Assembly: GCA_002841975.1 (NCBI GenBank)
Contig: PHBQ01000006.1
Coordinates: 1-53,458, forward strand
Direction of reading: 5' to 3'
DNA: 53,458 nt
From: Candidatus Cloacimonetes bacterium HGW-Cloacimonetes-1
GTDB lineage: Bacteria > Cloacimonadota > Cloacimonadia > Cloacimonadales > Cloacimonadaceae
This document shows, piece after piece, positions 11,720 to 37,288 of the stretch (position 1 is its first letter; every line of letters begins with the position of its first letter). Both the position numbers and the translations under genes were made by a program. The notes beneath the pieces are model-generated. The model was not told the DNA's origin, searched no databases, and saw only the letters and a program-made list of their open reading frames with translations.

Positions 11720-11890
11720 TTATTCGGAAATAGCTTGGACTGGGCAAGTAGCAACGCAAGCACCGCAATCAATGCAAGTGTCGTCGTCACATACAGCTTT
11801 GTCAGCTTCCATAGAAAGTGCACTTACGGGGCAAACACCTACGCAAGCGCCGCAGCCGATGCATGTATCTTTGTCAATTTTAATAGCCAT
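11720..11890 (-). CDS. 2[4Fe-4S] ferredoxin, 56 residues
   Basis: A short gene of 56 codons encodes a clostridial-type ferredoxin, MAIKIDKDTCIGCGACVGVC onwards. Two full CxxCxxCxxxCP clusters are visible: CIGCGACVGVCP and CIDCGACVATCP. Each binds one [4Fe-4S] centre, making it a low-potential electron carrier in the cytoplasm for anaerobic enzymes such as oxidoreductases or hydrogenase. AAAGGAGT lies 6 bases before the ATG, and a strong terminator follows. It is therefore a single-gene unit. The longer minus-strand open frame at 11614-11823 overlaps it in another frame and is spurious. Confidence 0.95.
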   Translation of the reverse strand: MAIKIDKDTCIGCGACVGVCPVSALSMEADKAVCDDDTCIDCGACVATCPVQAISE

Positions 11891-11950
11891 GAGAGACTCC
11901 TTTATCTTTTGTGCTATGTTCAGATTTATATTGGATCAGTCAAGCACTTT

Positions 11951-12700
11951 TTAGCTTTTTGCTTTTGCTTGGTTTGCTACTGCCTGTTCGGCTTTTGCCA
12001 CTTCATCGGCATCGGCGAGGTAGTAACTGCGGATTACACTGAGATCTTCGTTAAATTCATAAACCAGTGGAATCCCCGTGGGAATATTGAGCGCTACAAT
12101 TTCATCATCCCCGATTTTGTTCAGGGATTTGACGATGGCGCGCAGACTGTTGCCATGAGCAGCGATGATTAAGTTTTTGCCGGCTTTGATGCGGGGGACT
12201 ATGATTTCGTCCCAAAAAGGCATGGTCCTGGCACAGGTGAGTTCCAATGATTCTGCCACCGGTAACTGATCCGGACTCAAATCTTTGTAGCGGGCATCTT
12301 TGCCGGGGTAACGAGGATCATCCAAGTCCAATGCTGGTGGCGGGACGTCAAAGCTACGTCGCCAGATTTTTACCTGATCTTCGCCGTACTTCTCGGCAGT
12401 TTCAGCCTTGTTAAGCCCCTGTAAAGCACCATAATGCCGCTCGTTCAAACGCCAATCCCGTTGCACTGGTAACCACATGAGATCCATCTCATCCAGAGTA
12501 ATCCAGAGCGTGCGAATGGCTCTTTTGAGCACGGATGTCCAGGCTTCATCAAAGACAAATCCTGCTTCTTTAAGGCGTTTTCCCGCAGTATGAGCTTCGG
12601 TGACACCGCGTTCGGAAAGATCTACATCGGTCCAGCCGGTGAAGAGGTTTTCTTTGTTCCATACGCTTTCGCCATGACGGATCAAAACTATTTTGTACAT
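11951..12700 (-). CDS. gpmA: 2,3-bisphosphoglycerate-dependent phosphoglycerate mutase
   Basis: GpmA interconverts 3- and 2-phosphoglycerate in glycolysis and gluconeogenesis. The 249-residue length is standard. The phosphohistidine motif [10 protein letters not shown] is at the N-terminus, with [40 protein letters not shown] and the second catalytic His in [10 protein letters not shown] all conserved. A C-terminal Ala/Lys-rich tail ([14 protein letters not shown]) is extra. GGAG lies 9 bases before the ATG, inside the end of the adenosyltransferase gene, whose stop overlaps the start by one base. fba and gap of the same pathway lie at 25361-27350. Confidence 0.96.
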
Positions 12701-13257
12701 TATATATCTCCTTTACAATCAATCATATCGGGCTTTGTCTTGTATACGATGGCTCCGTCCAGGTGCTCTACCCAGCGTGCCATCATAAAAAAGAAATCTG
12801 AGAGGCGATTACAAAATTCCAGGAGGGCAGGAGCCAGCTCTTCCGTGCGCGAGAGAGCTATCACCCGGCGTTCCGCACGCCTGGCAATGGTCCTGCAAAC
12901 ATCCAGATGTGCCGATGGAATTGTGGAGCCGGGGATCACAAAGCCTGTCAGGTGGAGCCGTGATTCATATTCGCGGATCACATTGGTCAGGGCTTCGGCA
13001 TCGGATATACAGATGGGAACTACGTATTCTTTGCTCCGCGACGCGAGCTGTCCCATCACTCGATAGAGCTTGTTTTGCAGATCGAGCAAGAGCTCCAGAA
13101 TATCTGTCTGTTTGATATAGTGTTTAGCAACACCGATCTGAGCATCAAGCTCGTCCAAAGTGCCGTAGGCATCGACGCGGATATCGTCCTTCCAGACTCT
13201 TTCCCCGCTCCAGAGCGAAGTCTGCCCCTGGTCCCCGGTCTTAGTCGTGATACTCAT
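12700..13257 (-). CDS. PduO-type ATP:cob(I)alamin adenosyltransferase
   Basis: This enzyme transfers the adenosyl group of ATP to cob(I)alamin to make coenzyme B12. The 185-residue protein has the PduO/MMAB signature: [20 protein letters not shown] near the start (ATP-binding), [14 protein letters not shown] and the C-terminal [15 protein letters not shown]. It would support B12-dependent enzymes such as methylmalonyl-CoA mutase, which are common in propionate- and amino-acid-fermenting anaerobes. No such enzyme is in the window. It lies 4 bases after ridA and overlaps gpmA by one base, so these three probably form one transcript. Confidence 0.92.
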
Positions 13258-13261
13258 CGCT

Positions 13262-13633
13262 TTATTTGGCAGCGATTACAGATATCTCTACCAAGCCATC
13301 TTTGGGTAAACGAGCCACTTGTACGGCTTCTCTGGCAGGATAGGGAGTACTGAAATGCTTGGCATAAATCTCGTTTAAAGCGGCAAAATCGTTCATGTCT
13401 TTGAGGAAGACAGAGACTTTGACGATGTTTGTACAGCTCATACCGGCGGCATCAAGGATAGCTTTGATATTTGCAAAGACGAGGTTTGTCTGTTCCACAA
13501 AACTCTCTGCCATTGTGCCGGATACAGGATCGATACCCAATTGACCGGACATAAATAACATATTGTTGCTTAAAACTGCTTGTGAATAGGGTCCGATGGC
13601 CCCGGGAGCTTTGTGTGTGTGAATCGCTTGCAT
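13262..13633 (-). CDS. ridA: RidA family enamine/imine deaminase
   Basis: RidA hydrolyses reactive 2-aminoacrylate-type enamines released by PLP enzymes. The 123-residue length is typical of the trimeric YjgF/YER057c/UK114 family. Conserved features are APGAIGPYSQAV near the N-terminus, FMSGQLGIDP, and PAREAVQVARLPKDGLVEI, whose Arg binds the substrate carboxylate and is needed for deaminase activity. AAGGAG lies 6 bases before the ATG. It follows the HisRS-like gene by 9 bases and precedes the adenosyltransferase by 4. Confidence 0.95.
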   Translation of the reverse strand: MQAIHTHKAPGAIGPYSQAVLSNNMLFMSGQLGIDPVSGTMAESFVEQTNLVFANIKAILDAAGMSCTNIVKVSVFLKDMNDFAALNEIYAKHFSTPYPAREAVQVARLPKDGLVEISVIAAK

Positions 13634-13642
13634 GTGATCTCC

Positions 13643-14929
13643 TTATTTTTCTTGAATTGTTGCTTTTCGTGCGATCAGGATTTCATTGATGATCTGATTG
13701 AGGGCGGTATAATCCTGATGTTCTTTTCCCAGATTGCGGATCAATACTTTTCCCTCGCGGATGTTTTCTTCCCGCAGGATGATCATCACGTTGCAGCCTT
13801 TTCGTATAGCTGTCTTGATCTCTACCTCGGTCGGTAAAATATCCGCACTCAGGATTGTGATAATGTTCTGTTCATGTAATTCCTGAGCTATTTGCAGCAT
13901 CATGATCTCCATATCCTGGGTTTGGGCGCAGATGTAAACTGCAAAGGGAGTGAGGTTCTCCCGGAAGAGATTCCGCTCGTGCATGATCTCAAATACGGTA
14001 TCGAGATTGATGTAGAAACCTACGGCAGGGATCTTTTTGCCGGTGATCATCTGGGATAGATAGTCATAACGACCGCCACCGCCGATCACGGTAGGTACTC
14101 CCCGGAGGTCTGCAATGATGTCAAAAACAGTTTCGTTGTAATAGGAGAAGTTTTTGAAGAGATGATCGTTGACTTTGTACTCATTTGCCAGATTCGCCTG
14201 GATTTTCTTGACTTTATGGAAATTGATTTTACACTTTTCACAGAGATAGTTCTGGATCTGGGGACCCTGATGGGCGATTACATTACAGCCATCGTCTTGG
14301 CAACAGGTATCCGCCAAAGGATTGTTGAGGAGCTCAGTATAGCAGTGGGCACACAAGTTTTCCTTGTGGTTATCGATGTGTTGCCGCATGTCCCGGAAAA
14401 AATCTACCCGGCATTCTTCACAGCCGTAACTATTGATCTCCAGACGTGCATCTTGCAAACCCAGCTGATGAATGAGTCTCATACCCAAACTGATGATCTC
14501 ATTTTCGGACAAAATACTGTCACTGCCCAAAAGCTCTACACCTAATTGATAGAACTCCATAGGCTGATGATTTTTGTCTTTACGAAACATCGGGCCGTGG
14601 TAGTAAAACCTGTGGATGTCCCCATCCTGAAACCGTTTGGCAGTATGGTGCAGTACGCTGATCGTGCCTTCCGGGCGCAAAGACAGCAGGCTCACGTTGT
14701 CGTCGGGAGCGGTTAAGCTCAATACTTGTTTGGTAACCTGGCTGGCTTCAATGACGTCCATCAAGGCGGTGATGCCATCGTGTAAAACGGAATAATCCTG
14801 CAAGACCGACAGGCGGATTTCCTGATAATTGTGCAAGGACAGCACATTGTCTATCTGTTGCTCGATTATCTTCCATTTCCACACATCTTCCGGCATAAAC
14901 TCATGGAAGCTTCTTAACTTGTCAGACAT
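13643..14929 (-). CDS. Histidyl-tRNA synthetase-like class II protein with altered active-site motifs
   Basis: This 428-residue protein has the full HisRS layout: a class II core, a cysteine-rich insert (CEEC at 170-173, CAHC at 193-196, CEKC at 230-233) and a C-terminal anticodon-binding domain. LSLRPEGT and GGGGRYDYL are conserved. Two motifs differ from canonical HisRS. Motif 2 reads GPMFRKDKNHQPMEF instead of the usual FRxERPQxGRYRQF. The HisA motif LVRGLDYY reads LFKNFSYY, putting Lys259 where the catalytic Arg is expected. It may be a divergent working HisRS or a paralogue with another role. HisZ is less likely because HisZ lacks the anticodon domain. GGAG lies before the ATG; ridA follows by 9 bases. 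Confidence 0.8.
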   Translation of the reverse strand: MSDKLRSFHEFMPEDVWKWKIIEQQIDNVLSLHNYQEIRLSVLQDYSVLHDGITALMDVIEASQVTKQVLSLTAPDDNVSLLSLRPEGTISVLHHTAKRFQDGDIHRFYYHGPMFRKDKNHQPMEFYQLGVELLGSDSILSENEIISLGMRLIHQLGLQDARLEINSYGCEECRVDFFRDMRQHIDNHKENLCAHCYTELLNNPLADTCCQDDGCNVIAHQGPQIQNYLCEKCKINFHKVKKIQANLANEYKVNDHLFKNFSYYNETVFDIIADLRGVPTVIGGGGRYDYLSQMITGKKIPAVGFYINLDTVFEIMHERNLFRENLTPFAVYICAQTQDMEIMMLQIAQELHEQNIITILSADILPTEVEIKTAIRKGCNVMIILREENIREGKVLIRNLGKEHQDYTALNQIINEILIARKATIQEK

Positions 14930-15070
14930 TCACTCTCCAATATCGTTGATTGCATCATTATGAAAAGGTAAACATAATCTGTCAACATAATTCATCACAA
15001 ATGGGATCGTATCATCAGTTCGGGATCGTAACAATTCATCGCATTCAGGGTCTATCATCACATTCATGTT

Positions 15071-15153
15071 GTAGGGGCGACCGGCGGGTCGCCCGCAATC
15101 AATGCGACGGAATTAGGTACATCTGGATCGGGCGAACCGCCGTTCGCCCCTAC
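15071..15153. repeat. GC-rich inverted repeat element, two arms
   Basis: The left arm at 15071-15094 contains GGGCGACCGGCGGGTCGCCC. The right arm at 15130-15153 is its reverse complement with two mismatches. Each arm is itself a hairpin. The left arm recurs exactly at 24606-24629. This is a REP-like dispersed element, sitting in the 274-base gap between the HisRS-like gene and the 308-aa gene, which holds nothing else recognisable. It could act as a terminator for the 308-aa gene. Confidence 0.8.
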
Positions 15154-15203
15154 GGGTTCGCTTTCTGCAGTAACGTCGTCCTGCTCTGCAGGATTCACAT
15201 CAT

Positions 15204-16130
15204 CTAAACTTCGATCAATGTAACTTTTAGATCTGTGTGATCCTCGTGATCAAGCGCGTTGAAGATTACCTTGCAACTTCTATCCGCATTGCTGGACTTC
15301 AGCTTTCTTTTGATTCTCTCATAACGACGGGTATCGATTTTGATGCTCAATTCCTTCACTTCGTTTTGCTCGGCACTGTCAATGAGGCCATTGACTTTGT
15401 CCAGATCGGTATCTTCACAAGTTTCCGGGAGGCTAAACCACTGGATGTAATCCGGAATATCGTCTTCGCTATAGGCATCTTCGGGTGCAACATACTCATA
15501 GCACAGAAGCGTCGTCTCATCGAGATCTTCGGTGGTAAGCGCTTCGACATAAGCTATTTGTTCGGCAAGCTCTTCCAGATATTCATCATGTTTGTCATAT
15601 TCATCGGTCGTGATTTCAACCTCTAGGAACGCCAAACCTTGTTCATATCCTTCCAGCAGTACATCTTTCAGATTCTCTTTGTGCAGCGCCTTGGAGTTAT
15701 CAAGCTTATTGATAAAGCTCTCGATTCCTTTCAAAAAAGGAGTAATGACCTCGCCCATATCCAAATCGTCATCATCTTTATCCACTTGACTCACTTTCCA
15801 TTTCAGAGGAGTAATATAGGCTTTGGCTTCCTTGTAATGGGAGATCAAGCTCACTGTGTCTCCTGCGACGCTCAGCTCCAAATGGTAGGGGCAATAGCTC
15901 TTGATCAGCTCAAATTGCTCCTGATAATGTTCCAAAAAGTCCTTGCTGACTTCGATCTCGAGAGTATCAAAACCTCGAAGGTAGTGCTTTTTCATGAGAT
16001 CGGTAATGTTGTTTAGGTCCTTACCTGCATTCTGTGGGTCTGTGACGCCACTGAATTCTTTCTCACCAGATTCATTCATGCGGGAGGAATGTGTATCCTC
16101 GTAACTGATTCTACATGCGTTTGTGTTCAT
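15204..16130 (-). CDS. Acidic 308-aa protein made of three repeated modules, function unknown
   Basis: No known family is recognised. The protein is strongly acidic (a run of DKDDDDLDMGE near residue 117). Three segments share a pattern: a short amphipathic helix, then a strand, then a charged helix with spaced Tyr. They are NNITDLMKK...FDTLEIEVSKDFLEHYQ (about 40-70), ENLKDVLLE...LAFLEVEITTDEYDKHD (about 152-182) and LDKVNGLID...VKELSIKIDTRRYERIK (about 243-274). GAGG lies 7 bases before the ATG. It follows the GTPase terminator on the same strand and has its own promoter-like box at 16171-16203, which resembles the one before the 100-aa gene at 23862. No signal peptide is seen, so it is probably cytoplasmic. 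Confidence 0.75.
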   Translation of the reverse strand: MNTNACRISYEDTHSSRMNESGEKEFSGVTDPQNAGKDLNNITDLMKKHYLRGFDTLEIEVSKDFLEHYQEQFELIKSYCPYHLELSVAGDTVSLISHYKEAKAYITPLKWKVSQVDKDDDDLDMGEVITPFLKGIESFINKLDNSKALHKENLKDVLLEGYEQGLAFLEVEITTDEYDKHDEYLEELAEQIAYVEALTTEDLDETTLLCYEYVAPEDAYSEDDIPDYIQWFSLPETCEDTDLDKVNGLIDSAEQNEVKELSIKIDTRRYERIKRKLKSSNADRSCKVIFNALDHEDHTDLKVTLIEV

Positions 16131-22323: not shown

Positions 22324-22580
22324 TTAGGACGCCATCATATTGGGCATCTGTTTAAACTGGTAGAACTTGTCATAATCAACATGATTCAGCCACAAATCCT
22401 CGGCAGCATGGTAATCTGAAAGGCAAACATAATAGCATTCAAAGCACCTACACTGCTACCCGATACCGCTACCACATGTTTTGCTAAGCCATTTTCTTCC
22501 AAGGCTTTCCAAACTCCCAGTTGATAAGCACCTTTTGCTCCGCCTCCGGAGAGTACTAATCCAAGCTTCAAATCTTTCAT
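22324..22580 (-). pseudogene. Patatin-like phospholipase remnant, frameshifted and truncated
   Basis: The start is a good patatin N-terminus: LVLSGGGAKGAYQLGVWKAL (oxyanion-hole glycine motif) and SGSSVGALNAIMFA (the GxSxG nucleophile elbow). The open frame then runs into FQITMLPRICG and stops at 22386. One frame over, the reading continues as CLSDYHAAEDLWLNHVDYDK, the expected patatin continuation, and stops at 22324. So a frameshift lies close to 22420-22435 and most of the domain, including the catalytic Asp, is gone. The ATG overlaps the WYL regulator stop (ATGA), so the intact gene was translated with it. A sequencing error could explain the frameshift but not the missing 3' part. Confidence 0.8.
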
Positions 22581-23557
22581 CTATAAACCTCTAGAATGCT
22601 CTTGGCTTCACTTTGAATAATATCCACCAATTCCCCCGGCTCAAGCACTTTCACCTGTGCACCATAGCTCAGTACAAGCTTCTTCATTTCACTCAATGAG
22701 TTAGCCGGCATCTCCAGGAAAATGGAATTATCCGGGTGTTTTTCAATCTTCTGTTCCGGGTGCCAGATGCGTTCTGCAATATAGTCTGAAGTGGGGGGAT
22801 AAAACTGCAAGCGAACCTGGAAGACCTTTCCGGTATAGATGCCAAAACCGCTATTGAAATAGAGATCAGAATCAAATGCCACCTCGTCCTGAGGGCTATC
22901 CGACACCACCAAGGCATCTATCCGATTGACGGCAAAGACAATCACCTGATCGATCTTTTTGTAATATCCAGCCAGATAGAAATTGTGATTGAAGTACTTG
23001 ATGCTCAGTGGGGAGATTTCCTTGTGACTGTGTTTCTGGCTTTGCACACTGTAATAATCGAAGGACACCTTTTTGTAGTTCAAAATGGCTTTGAGCAATT
23101 GGCTCAGTTGTTGGTTCATCACTTCTGTACTGGGCACGATCCCGGTACTGTCGCTGATCAGTGCCTTTTGGACATCACGATAGAATTTTAAGATGGATTT
23201 ATCCAGGTTACTATCTATCTTACGCAGCAGATTCTTGATGTTTTCGGAGCTCACCAATCCCGATTCTTGCCAGAGTTTGGATGCCAAAGAGAGATTTAGG
23301 ATGTCCTCATAGTTCAGGGAATAATCCGGCAGCCTATAACTCTGAACGAAGTAATAGAACACTTGATTCTCCCGATCGGCATCCTGATCTTCATAGATAG
23401 GAAAGCCACAGGACGAGAGATTGGTGATATCCCTGGCGATGGTTTTTTTGGATACTTTGAAATACAGAGCCAGCTCGCCTTTGGAAATCCCGGTAGCACG
23501 GTTCTGATTGATCAAGTGTAGCATTTGCCATTGCCGATATAGTGCTTGATTGCGCAT
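22577..23557 (-). CDS. WYL-domain transcriptional regulator
   Basis: This is a 326-residue regulator. The N-terminal HTH (residues about 8-50, TGISKGELALYFKVSKKTIA) is followed by a WYL domain (about 165-230). The family's W-Y-L motif here reads FYLAGY in HNFYLAGYYKK, with the conserved Arg in NRIDALV. A C-terminal WCX-like segment ends the protein. WYL proteins bind nucleic acid or nucleotide ligands and often control phage-defence and stress loci. The ATG follows the 100-aa gene closely and has no strong ribosome-binding site, so coupling is likely. It probably controls its own operon from 23894-23969. Confidence 0.88.
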   Translation of the reverse strand: MRNQALYRQWQMLHLINQNRATGISKGELALYFKVSKKTIARDITNLSSCGFPIYEDQDADRENQVFYYFVQSYRLPDYSLNYEDILNLSLASKLWQESGLVSSENIKNLLRKIDSNLDKSILKFYRDVQKALISDSTGIVPSTEVMNQQLSQLLKAILNYKKVSFDYYSVQSQKHSHKEISPLSIKYFNHNFYLAGYYKKIDQVIVFAVNRIDALVVSDSPQDEVAFDSDLYFNSGFGIYTGKVFQVRLQFYPPTSDYIAERIWHPEQKIEKHPDNSIFLEMPANSLSEMKKLVLSYGAQVKVLEPGELVDIIQSEAKSILEVYR

Positions 23558-24605: not shown

Positions 24606-24629
24606 GTAGGGGCGACCGGCGGGTCGCCC
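24606..24629. repeat. Second copy of the GC-rich hairpin repeat
   Basis: It is identical to the left arm at 15071-15094 (contains GGGCGACCGGCGGGTCGCCC). The opposite arm is not present here. Confidence 0.8.
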
Positions 24630-35361: not shown

Positions 35362-35973
35362 TCAAATGATCATAAATTTATAAGTCCAGTCCATCAGCTG
35401 TTCCATCCCCACGTTGTTCAAAGCAGAGACGGGATAGATCGGGATATCGCCACAATTCAGCCCTTTGCGTAACTGATTGATCTGAGCCACAATCTTGGCT
35501 TTGGGGACTTTGTCTGCTTTGGTGGCAATCACGCAATGCTCGATCTGGCGCAAACGCAGCATCTCCAGCATCAGGATGTCTTTCTTATCCGCAGGATGAC
35601 GAATATCGACCAGGACCAGGATGCCTCGTAACTGAGGTCTCTGCTCCAGATATTTATTGATCATTTTACGCCACTTTTCCTGCTCGGCAAGACCTATTTC
35701 GGCAAAGCCATAGCCGGGAAAATCTGTGAATTGCATAAAGCCGGTTTCGTCATTGGCATCGTGTTTCCAACGGATCAGGAAAAAGTTTAGAAGGCGTGTT
35801 TTACCGGGAGTACCGCTGGTCTTGGCGAGGCTCTTACGTCCTGTAAGAAGATTGATGAGGGTGGATTTACCAACGTTTGATCTGCCGGCAAAGGCAAATT
35901 CGGGATATGCAGAGGCGGGGTAGTCTGCCGGTTCTACGGCACTTTTAACAAAAAAAGACTCGACTATTCTCAT
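35362..35973 (-). CDS. engB: Ribosome biogenesis GTPase EngB (YsxC/YihA)
   Basis: EngB is an essential GTPase for 50S subunit assembly. The 203-residue protein has G1 AGRSNVGKSTLIN, G2 TSGTPGKTRLLNFF, G3 DFPGYGFAE and G4 ATKADKVPK, with the switch G5 SALNNVGM. Its start overlaps the queD stop (ATGA). It ends 7 bases before the ACG that appears to start mnmG, and mnmG's GAGG site overlaps its stop codon, so the two are probably coupled. Confidence 0.96.
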   Translation of the reverse strand: MRIVESFFVKSAVEPADYPASAYPEFAFAGRSNVGKSTLINLLTGRKSLAKTSGTPGKTRLLNFFLIRWKHDANDETGFMQFTDFPGYGFAEIGLAEQEKWRKMINKYLEQRPQLRGILVLVDIRHPADKKDILMLEMLRLRQIEHCVIATKADKVPKAKIVAQINQLRKGLNCGDIPIYPVSALNNVGMEQLMDWTYKFMII

Positions 35974-36338
35974 ATAGCATATACCACCGAGGATCTCTCC
36001 GATTCACATATTTCCACTTCATAGACGCGACAAGTATCACTGCCCAATTGACTTTGCATCCGTTCATAGACGTATTTTGCCAGATGTTCAGAGGTAGGAT
36101 TGATCTGGTCAAAGGGAGGAATCTCATTCAGATATTGATGATCGAGTTCGTTCAAGATAGCATTCAGGTACTTTTTGATGATGCCAAAGTCCATCGCCAT
36201 ACCGATCTCGTCCAAGGTCTCGCAGATCAGTCCGATCCGCACTTTCCAGTTGTGGCCATGCAGGTTTTGGCAAGCTCCCTGATAGCCACAAAGCTTGTGG
36301 GCAGCAGAGAATGTTTCGGTTACGCTTAATTTATACAA
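35970..36338 (-). CDS. queD: 6-carboxytetrahydropterin synthase
   Basis: QueD makes 6-carboxytetrahydropterin from dihydroneopterin triphosphate for queuosine synthesis. The 122-residue protein has the zinc histidines in SAAHKL and LHGHNW, the catalytic Cys in GACQNLHGH, AMDFGIIK, LDHQYLNE and NPTSEHLAKYVYE. The TTG at 36338 is chosen because GAGAGG lies 8 bases upstream and it gives the usual family N-terminus (YKLSVTETFSAAH). The TTG at 36359 overlaps the corA stop and has no site. engB overlaps its stop codon. Confidence 0.93.
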   Translation of the reverse strand: MYKLSVTETFSAAHKLCGYQGACQNLHGHNWKVRIGLICETLDEIGMAMDFGIIKKYLNAILNELDHQYLNEIPPFDQINPTSEHLAKYVYERMQSQLGSDTCRVYEVEICESERSSVVYAI

Positions 36339-36355
36339 GGTTGTTTCCTCTCTTA

Positions 36356-37288
36356 TCAAAAATATTTCTTGCGGATAAACACAAAGACTAGTGTAATCGA
36401 CATCACAATGGCAAAGCCCATCACGATCAGGAATGCGTATGGGTTGTTTTGAAACGGCAATCTCACGTTCATTCCATAGATGCTTGCAATCAATGTCGGC
36501 AAAGCTATAATGATCGTAATTGATGTCAAGAACTTCATCACAACGTTGAGGTTATTGGAGATGATCGAAGCAAAGGCATCCATCATTCCACTCAGGATAC
36601 TGCTGTGGATATTTGCCATTTCGATCGCCTGTTTGTTCTCGATAATTACGTCTTCAATCAAGTCTTCCGCTTCGGAATCCTGCTGCATCCAACGCGATCT
36701 CTGCATCCGTTCCAGGATAATTTCGTTCGACTTGAGGGATGTGGTAAAAAACACCAGGGACTTTTCCATGCGCAGGAGGCGGATCAATTCCTTGTTCCGC
36801 ATGGACTGGTGTAGCTCATTTTCTATATTTGCGGTACGGCGGTCTATTTCCTTCAGAAACTTCAGGTAATAGATCGAAGTGCGCAGATTGAGATGCAAGA
36901 CAAAACTCTGCTGCGTGATCCGGAAGGGACGGTTTTTACCATCCAGATACTGGGTCAAAACTTCATTGTCATAAAAAGAAACGGTGATCACTTTATCCGG
37001 GATCACGATGATCCCCAAAGGTGCCGTGGCAAAGGGAACCGTGGCAGAGCGATGTTTATAAAACACCGGTACTCGCACGATGATCAGCATTGCGCCTTCA
37101 TCGTATTCCAGACGTGCGTTTTCGTCTACGTCCTGTAAGTCTGTGATAAAATCTTCCGGAAGATCATATTGTTTTACAACGCTGTTGATCTCGTCTGTGT
37201 CTGGGTTTTCCAGATGAAGCCAAAATGTTTCATCCAAGTTTAGTGCCGGAGCAAATCGCTGTCCTGTGCTTTTGAACATCTGAATCAT
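36356..37288 (-). CDS. corA: CorA-type magnesium/divalent cation transporter
   Basis: This 310-residue inner-membrane channel imports Mg2+ or related ions. The long N-terminal cytoplasmic funnel ends with a helix leading into two C-terminal membrane helices: FLTSITIIIALPTLIASI, then the selectivity motif YGMNV, then AFLIVMGFAIVMSITLVFVF. The protein ends in a basic tail (RKKYF). The ATG at 37288 has GGAGG 6 bases upstream and is preferred over the GTG at 37300. The queD start region overlaps its end. The 37301-37454 gap upstream shows no terminator for the BtpA gene and nothing else clear. Confidence 0.93.
   Translation of the reverse strand: MIQMFKSTGQRFAPALNLDETFWLHLENPDTDEINSVVKQYDLPEDFITDLQDVDENARLEYDEGAMLIIVRVPVFYKHRSATVPFATAPLGIIVIPDKVITVSFYDNEVLTQYLDGKNRPFRITQQSFVLHLNLRTSIYYLKFLKEIDRRTANIENELHQSMRNKELIRLLRMEKSLVFFTTSLKSNEIILERMQRSRWMQQDSEAEDLIEDVIIENKQAIEMANIHSSILSGMMDAFASIISNNLNVVMKFLTSITIIIALPTLIASIYGMNVRLPFQNNPYAFLIVMGFAIVMSITLVFVFIRKKYF

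Follow-up and report, generated by a model that had tools for sequence, protein, structure and literature searches.

The gene at positions 13643-14929 on the minus strand of the window (the whole stretch of DNA that was analysed, 53,458 nucleotides from Candidatus Cloacimonetes bacterium HGW-Cloacimonetes-1) encodes a protein with the layout of histidyl-tRNA synthetase (HisRS) but with altered catalytic motifs. The question it raises is whether its chemistry is done differently or whether it is a paralogue with another job. The gene, called hisS2 here (a name coined for this analysis only), starts with ATG and encodes 428 amino acids; a frame check showed the reading frame to be real, with the minus strand open and the plus strand not. 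The only passing Pfam domains in the protein are PF13393 (E 6e-47, residues 8-312) and PF03129, which matches weakly (E 1.5e-4, residues 331-417); a GCN2-type protein kinase domain is absent. When compared with the sequences of solved structures, the protein was matched to S. aureus HisRS (1qe0, E 1.9e-42). It reaches 251.4 bits with the hisS model TIGR00442 and 119.9 bits with the hisZ model TIGR00443, under the respective equivalog cut-offs of 286.75 and 271.65, and nine further paralogues score 154-269 bits with TIGR00442, all under its cut-off. PADLOC, used to look for an anti-phage role, gave no match for hisS2.

Active-site residues were counted in 43 paralogues of at least 380 amino acids (the fragments L031 and L048 were excluded), 25 canonical HisRS of the Cloacimonadota, 33 other canonical HisRS (that of E. 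coli and 32 from the 79 that were found) as well as five HisZ rows, one of which (L247) is a fragment under the HisZ cut-off. Residues are numbered after E. coli HisRS by alignment, and their assignment to the histidine pocket and the ATP site follows the E. coli HisRS structures. All features described in the following lie on the minus strand. The five pocket residues (E83, T85, Q127, E131 and Y264) are all present in the hisS2 protein and complete in 37/43 paralogues, or in 40/43 when Asp83 is counted; in L081, the most distant copy, part of the pocket is lost. The first two lie in the conserved RPEGT (protein residues 85-89, 14663-14677), where Glu83 is Glu in 40 and Asp in 3 of the 43 paralogues and Thr85 is invariant (43/43).

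The ATP site shows the opposite pattern. Motif 2 (FRKDKNHQPMEF, residues 115-126, 14552-14587) keeps the Arg113 equivalent, but the RPQxGRxR loop is lost and is two residues shorter, with Arg121 and Arg123 missing. The HisA motif reads LFKNFSYY (residues 257-264, 14138-14161), in which Tyr263-Tyr264 are kept while Arg259 is replaced by Lys and Asp262 by Ser. Both changes, Lys for the Arg of LVRGLDYY and the missing ERPQxGR stretch of motif 2, had been pointed out by the sequence-only reading and were borne out by the alignment. It had missed a further loss in motif 3 (residues 302-312, 13994-14026), where Arg311 is Thr and Gly308 is Asn. All four ATP-site arginines (R121, R123, R259 and R311) occur together in 0/43 paralogues and 32/43 have none of them, whereas they are retained in 25/25 canonical Cloacimonadota HisRS, 33/33 other canonical HisRS and 2/5 HisZ. 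Arg311 is found in 2/43 paralogues versus 58/58 canonical rows, and no paralogue (0/43) has both Arg259 and Arg311. In addition Glu47 is Gln in 39 and Glu270 is Asp in 31 or Asn in 7 of the 43 paralogues; both are invariant in the 58 canonical rows. The description as a HisRS-like protein with altered catalytic motifs was therefore correct and rather understated, and because the pattern is common to all 43 paralogues it is no sequencing accident. The insertion domain (residues 170-233, 14231-14422) contains eight conserved cysteines, which are found together in 39/43 paralogues, 0/25 canonical Cloacimonadota HisRS and 15/33 other canonical HisRS.

Judged from these residues, adenylation has probably been lost rather than being done differently. 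On balance we lean towards hisS2 being a pseudo-synthetase, dead in adenylation but able to bind histidine, that serves as a regulator or adaptor, where the histidine binding, the partner and the regulatory role are what we infer. An adenylating ligase with changed chemistry, which like EpmA or GluQ-RS would charge an acceptor (tRNA-His or a different one) with the help of Lys259 and a rebuilt ATP site, is unlikely. Such an enzyme would fit the Lys259 (33/43, with Arg in another 5/43), the Arg113 (38/43) and the Asn or Asp at position 308 (42/43), a new near-fixed polar residue of motif 3. However, a selected ATP site should be conserved, and the motif-2 loop of the paralogues is short and variable while the motif-3 Arg is gone in 41/43, with T, L, I, S and others as replacements. 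One genome (G028, 99% complete) has the paralogue and gave no canonical HisRS match, which also speaks for such an enzyme, but its copy (L015) shows the same ATP-site losses. G028 is also without the ammonia-lyase gene found next to hisS in relatives, which suggests an assembly gap. EpmA/GenX is a duplicated synthetase with a new job, and both it and GluQ-RS remain adenylating enzymes, whereas hisS2 has lost the usual ATP site. GluQ-RS is likewise described as a duplicated synthetase with a new job in the accessible part of PMC3542578. In what is accessible of a computed analysis of HisRS (PMC8558854), nine conserved charged residues are named, including Glu83, Arg113, Glu131 and Arg259, and the Arg259 term is unfavourable for adenylation, so the loss of Arg259 alone is weak evidence for a dead site. 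As Lys259 is still positively charged and Arg113 is present in 38/43 paralogues, weak ATP binding is possible.

The whole HisRS fold, including the anticodon-binding domain, is predicted to be retained. The AlphaFold2 model of hisS2 reached a pLDDT of 89.1 and a pTM of 0.85; it was built on an alignment of 54 rows (the window protein with 53 relatives, namely L133 and 52 canonical HisRS taken from 63), and this richness in canonical sequences may pull the model towards the canonical fold. Its top fold match is the histidine-bound HisRS 4e51_A (Z 38.2, rmsd 2.5 over 407 residues); HisZ entries reach Z 24-28 and the GCN2 chain 9f58_E Z 23.6.

The genome, which is 99.45% complete and spans 2.78 Mb over 128 contigs, carries a canonical hisS on contig C87 (L001), which scores 491 bits with TIGR00442 against the cut-off of 286.75 and retains RPQAGRYR, VRGLDYY and the motif-3 Arg. 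ARAGORN names 40 of 41 tRNA matches, among them one tRNA-His (GTG), whose DNA encodes G-1 and C73 by inspection; the unnamed match (C109:1-80) is cut by a contig end. A second, canonical hisS and its tRNA-His, the first things to look for according to the sequence-only reading, are thus both present, and hisS2 is therefore dispensable as the HisRS of the cell. That hisS2 is the only hisS is ruled out for this genome. Like HisS, the protein has the pocket residues, an anticodon-type domain and the predicted whole fold, and an eight-cysteine insertion occurs in some HisRS as well; unlike HisS, it has lost the motif-3 Arg, Arg259, Asp262 and the RPQxGR loop, scores below the family cut-off and exists besides a canonical hisS.

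HisRS is a class-II dimer. It is conceivable, if improbable, that hisS2 is a non-catalytic subunit or regulator of the canonical enzyme, which would form a heterodimer over the class-II interface and modulate charging. The whole fold kept in the predicted model speaks for this, as does the canonical gene found alongside in 52/56 paralogue genomes. However, the two proteins are only 27% identical and encoded on different contigs (C74 for hisS2, C87 for the canonical enzyme), and many phylum genomes encode the canonical enzyme but no paralogue.

For the distribution, the paralogue was counted in 124 genomes of the phylum at a profile score of at least 371 bits, with one addition, G029, where two pieces of one 401-residue frame were entered as one place. 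By this count 56/124 genomes have the paralogue, and 20/124 gave neither a paralogue nor a canonical match; as phylum matches were listed only down to about 233 bits, some short fragments may have escaped the count. In f1, the family of the window, it occurs in 47/49 genomes, the two without it being 59% and 86% complete. Outside f1 it was found in f2 (1/3), f3 (1/1), f4 (2/2), f6 (1/2), f7 (1/2), f10 (2/4) and f11 (1/1), and the profile search gave none in f5 (n = 1), f8 (1), f9 (40), f12 (1) and f13 (17). Besides G028, the paralogue genomes without a canonical HisRS match are G006 (74% complete), G064 (71%) and G035 (81%). Eight HisRS stretches from seven f9 and f13 genomes all show the canonical motif-2 loop and HisA motif (8/8) and the motif-3 Glu-Arg (8/8). 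One f9 genome without the paralogue (G094) has two full-length HisRS genes with canonical motifs (L277 and L278), which are 59% identical to each other.

Beyond the phylum genomes, a wider scan of contigs gave a single paralogue among the best 80 loci listed, a copy of 51% identity that again comes from Candidatus Cloacimonadota (L133); the other 79 each show an RPQxGR-type loop, a VRG-type HisA motif or the two together. In 296 genomes from the phylum to which Chlorobium belongs, a profile search gave, among the matches listed, none above 308.2 bits, compared with at least 371 bits for the paralogue genomes (G029 with its two pieces excepted), a narrow margin as canonical HisRS of f13 reach 353. 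Six loci were found in IMG/VR, with 22-27% identity. The paralogue is thus likely restricted to the Cloacimonadota.

In a tree of 43 rows the 12 paralogues form one clade (bootstrap/SH-aLRT 100/100), the canonical Cloacimonadota HisRS a separate clade (100/100) and HisZ a third (100/99), and a quick tree of the 106 rows used for the residue counts gave the same three groups. In a free tree with HisRS, HisZ and HisRS-like paralogues, as proposed by the sequence-only reading, the hisS2 family stands apart. The same reading had considered that hisS2 might be simply a divergent enzyme, the only hisS of its genome and grouping with working HisRS; what was found is a canonical hisS and a separate paralogue clade. 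Together with the TIGR00442 scores under the cut-off this supports its other suggestion, a paralogue with another job. In AU tests neither a joint clade of the paralogues with HisZ (p 0.403) nor one with the canonical Cloacimonadota HisRS (p 0.527) was rejected, and for this reason no origin within the phylum is claimed.

The paralogue is under purifying selection. Six close pairs with usable dS gave dN/dS values of 0.065-0.20, while a seventh pair was saturated; for the sole canonical pair with usable dS the value is 0.079, compared with 0.109 between the paralogues of that genome pair. That hisS2 is a decaying pseudogene is rejected on these selection results, unless they were to reflect a recent loss, and we regard it as extremely improbable, although catalytic residues are missing, the G035 copy has a broken frame and that of G021 lies in pieces at contig ends. 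Its presence in 47/49 genomes of the family and the near-invariant residues specific to the paralogues also stand against decay.

In comparison to the canonical enzyme, the constraint on the paralogue is shifted away from the catalytic core and towards the C-terminal domain. Domain identities were compared in 11 f1 genomes that have both genes, giving 55 pairs, which are not independent. In these the catalytic domain has a mean identity of 0.586 in the paralogue versus 0.723 in the canonical protein and the insertion one of 0.451 versus 0.631, whereas the C-terminal domain reaches 0.511 versus 0.425, with the paralogue higher in 53/55 pairs. C-terminal identity divided by catalytic identity gives 0.87 for the paralogue and 0.59 for the canonical protein, a ratio that was stable under leave-one-out. 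In a wider set, 17 genomes from seven families, the C-terminal means hardly differ, with 0.397 (paralogue) and 0.379 (canonical), while the catalytic means are 0.437 and 0.667. Within the canonical gene itself the anticodon domain is far less conserved than the catalytic domain (0.425 versus 0.723 in the 11 f1 genomes). The C-terminal anticodon-binding-type domain of hisS2 (residues 326-428, 13646-13954), modelled mostly with pLDDT above 90, contains family-specific residues, namely Gln346 (42/43), Glu350 (40/43), His352 (39/43), Arg391 (39/43), Gly393 and Lys394 (43/43 each) and Lys422 (40/43, the remainder Arg).

A HisRS-derived protein with a kept pocket and no expected adenylation resembles HisZ, the regulatory subunit of short-form HisG, and a TIGR00443 match, if one under the cut-off (119.9 bits), and the AU test, in which a joint clade is not rejected (p 0.403), would agree with this. 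However, HisG was found in 0/60 genomes by profile search, the one of the window included, while 13/14 control genomes were positive, and HisD above the cut-off in 0/124 phylum genomes, with one weak match under the cut-off in G116. HisZ identity is rejected on this gene content. The two also form separate clades in the free tree, the paralogue keeps a constrained C-terminal domain, and the five HisZ rows hold more ATP-site residues than the paralogue family, with Arg259 and Asp262 each in 5/5 HisZ versus 5/43 and 0/43 paralogues. There is thus hardly any chance that hisS2 is a HisZ.

Judged by the same two markers, HisG and HisD, histidine biosynthesis seems to be missing from the phylum. The histidine-ammonia-lyase family is present in 112/124 phylum genomes, and histidine degradation has been reported for Cloacimonadota in the accessible parts of two papers (PMC8542988; PMC13082233). 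The ammonia-lyase is also found in clades without the paralogue, and therefore degradation alone does not predict the paralogue. Many f9 and f13 genomes without the paralogue have two genes of the aromatic-amino-acid-lyase family, often side by side, and paralogue genomes mostly one. On C87 the canonical hisS and a gene of the histidine-ammonia-lyase family are some 6 kb apart (L132; C87:42986-44362 and 35718-36902), and in G009 the distance is about 4 kb.

In the window, hisS2 is followed on the minus strand by ridA (PF01042, 13262-13633), a cobalamin adenosyltransferase gene (PF01923, 12700-13257) and a gene for a phosphoglycerate-mutase-type protein (PF00300, 11951-12700) with gaps of 9, 4 and -1 bp, the last two belonging to the same putative operon as hisS2. 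A promoter-like TTGACA-17-CATAAT (14957-14985, minus strand) precedes the hisS2 start codon by about 28 bp; it is a consensus match only, and 8 such sites were found in 11800-15400 versus 4.7 expected from shuffles. Rfam gave zero matches in the window at gathering score, therefore no recognised riboswitch or T-box is present there.

The neighbourhood raises the possibility, in our view a small one, that hisS2 is a regulatory subunit of another enzyme, possibly linked to RidA or amino-acid catabolism, that would act like HisZ but not on HisG. In 46/56 paralogue genomes ridA immediately follows the paralogue in the same orientation, no more than 500 bp away, and a ridA-family match is present in 56/56 paralogue genomes versus 19/68 others (one of the 19 below the Pfam cut-off; Fisher p 3.5e-19, not corrected for phylogeny). 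However, ridA is not adjacent in seven genomes (G004, G012, G018, G036, G038, G045 and G047) and near but on the opposite strand in three (G009, G015 and G028), and the adjacency may reflect operon inheritance only.

Upstream of hisS2 the window holds a gene for a 308-residue protein without Pfam match (15204-16130), then three successive dynamin-family GTPase genes (PF00350; 16262-18481, 18517-20637 and 20621-22279), the third with a weak PADLOC match to LeoA, and further upstream a WYL-domain regulator (22577-23557). A GC-rich near-palindromic repeat (GGGCGACCCGCCGGTCGCCC and variants) occurs at 15075-15094, 15130-15149 and 24610-24629, one pair separating hisS2 from the gene upstream of it. 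Copies are found on several contigs; when up to 2 mismatches are allowed, the genome has 10 matches in forward and 10 in reverse orientation, perfect copies counting on both strands, and the control has 0. Outside f1, all 9/9 loci read have upstream genes of a 7TM-HD (PgpH-type)-ybeY-corC (CNNM/CBS)-DUF3108-VanZ series, which is reduced to the DUF3108 gene in L034 and to corC in L081; the families were named on the L033 proteins and assigned at other loci by clustering.

To return to the pseudo-synthetase, we propose that hisS2 is an ancient HisRS paralogue, so far found only in Cloacimonadota, that would make no histidyl-adenylate. Its class-II core is without the ATP-handling arginines but has kept the amino-acid pocket, and because the pocket is kept, L-histidine or a close analogue is most likely still bound. 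Ligand binding could then be passed on to the C-terminal anticodon-type domain, which evolves slowly and would contact a partner, either an RNA (tRNA-His or a different one) or a protein (the canonical HisRS or some other, RidA being also a candidate). The outcome would be a histidine-responsive regulator or adaptor that resembles HisZ or the HisRS-like domain of GCN2, in a host where histidine would be imported, needed for charging of tRNA-His and also degraded. According to the accessible part of PMC9976931 the motif-2 loop of HisRS reads base 73, and as this loop is short in hisS2, normal recognition of the acceptor end is argued against; binding on the anticodon side is still possible.

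More speculatively, hisS2 may be a stand-alone bacterial counterpart of the HisRS-like sensor of GCN2, in which the dead site would read free histidine and the C-terminal domain tRNA-His or another RNA, dividing imported histidine between translation and fermentation; we hold this specific form to be rather doubtful. GCN2 uses a HisRS-related domain for sensing, as described in the accessible part of PMC4335047, and hisS2 shares the HisRS-related fold (9f58_E), but it is a stand-alone bacterial protein without kinase and keeps the histidine pocket.

In the accessible part of a review on duplicated aminoacyl-tRNA synthetases only HisZ is listed for the HisRS family (PMC9437257). The titles and abstract beginnings retrieved on HisZ, HisRS paralogues and bacterial HisRS-like proteins contain no such protein. 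Literature searches found no paper on Cloacimonadota HisRS, on histidine auxotrophy of Cloacimonas, on amino-acid auxotrophy of Cloacimonadota or on HisRS R259 in adenylation. For annotation, it has to be considered that automatic pipelines may label hisS2 as hisS or hisZ. If the proposal is true, hisS2 would join HisZ and the GCN2 domain as one more type of protein derived from HisRS, and a conserved pseudo-HisRS that keeps its pocket in the absence of HisG would be a separate re-use of the HisRS fold. It makes histidine sensing by histidine-fermenting bacteria without histidine biosynthesis a testable question.
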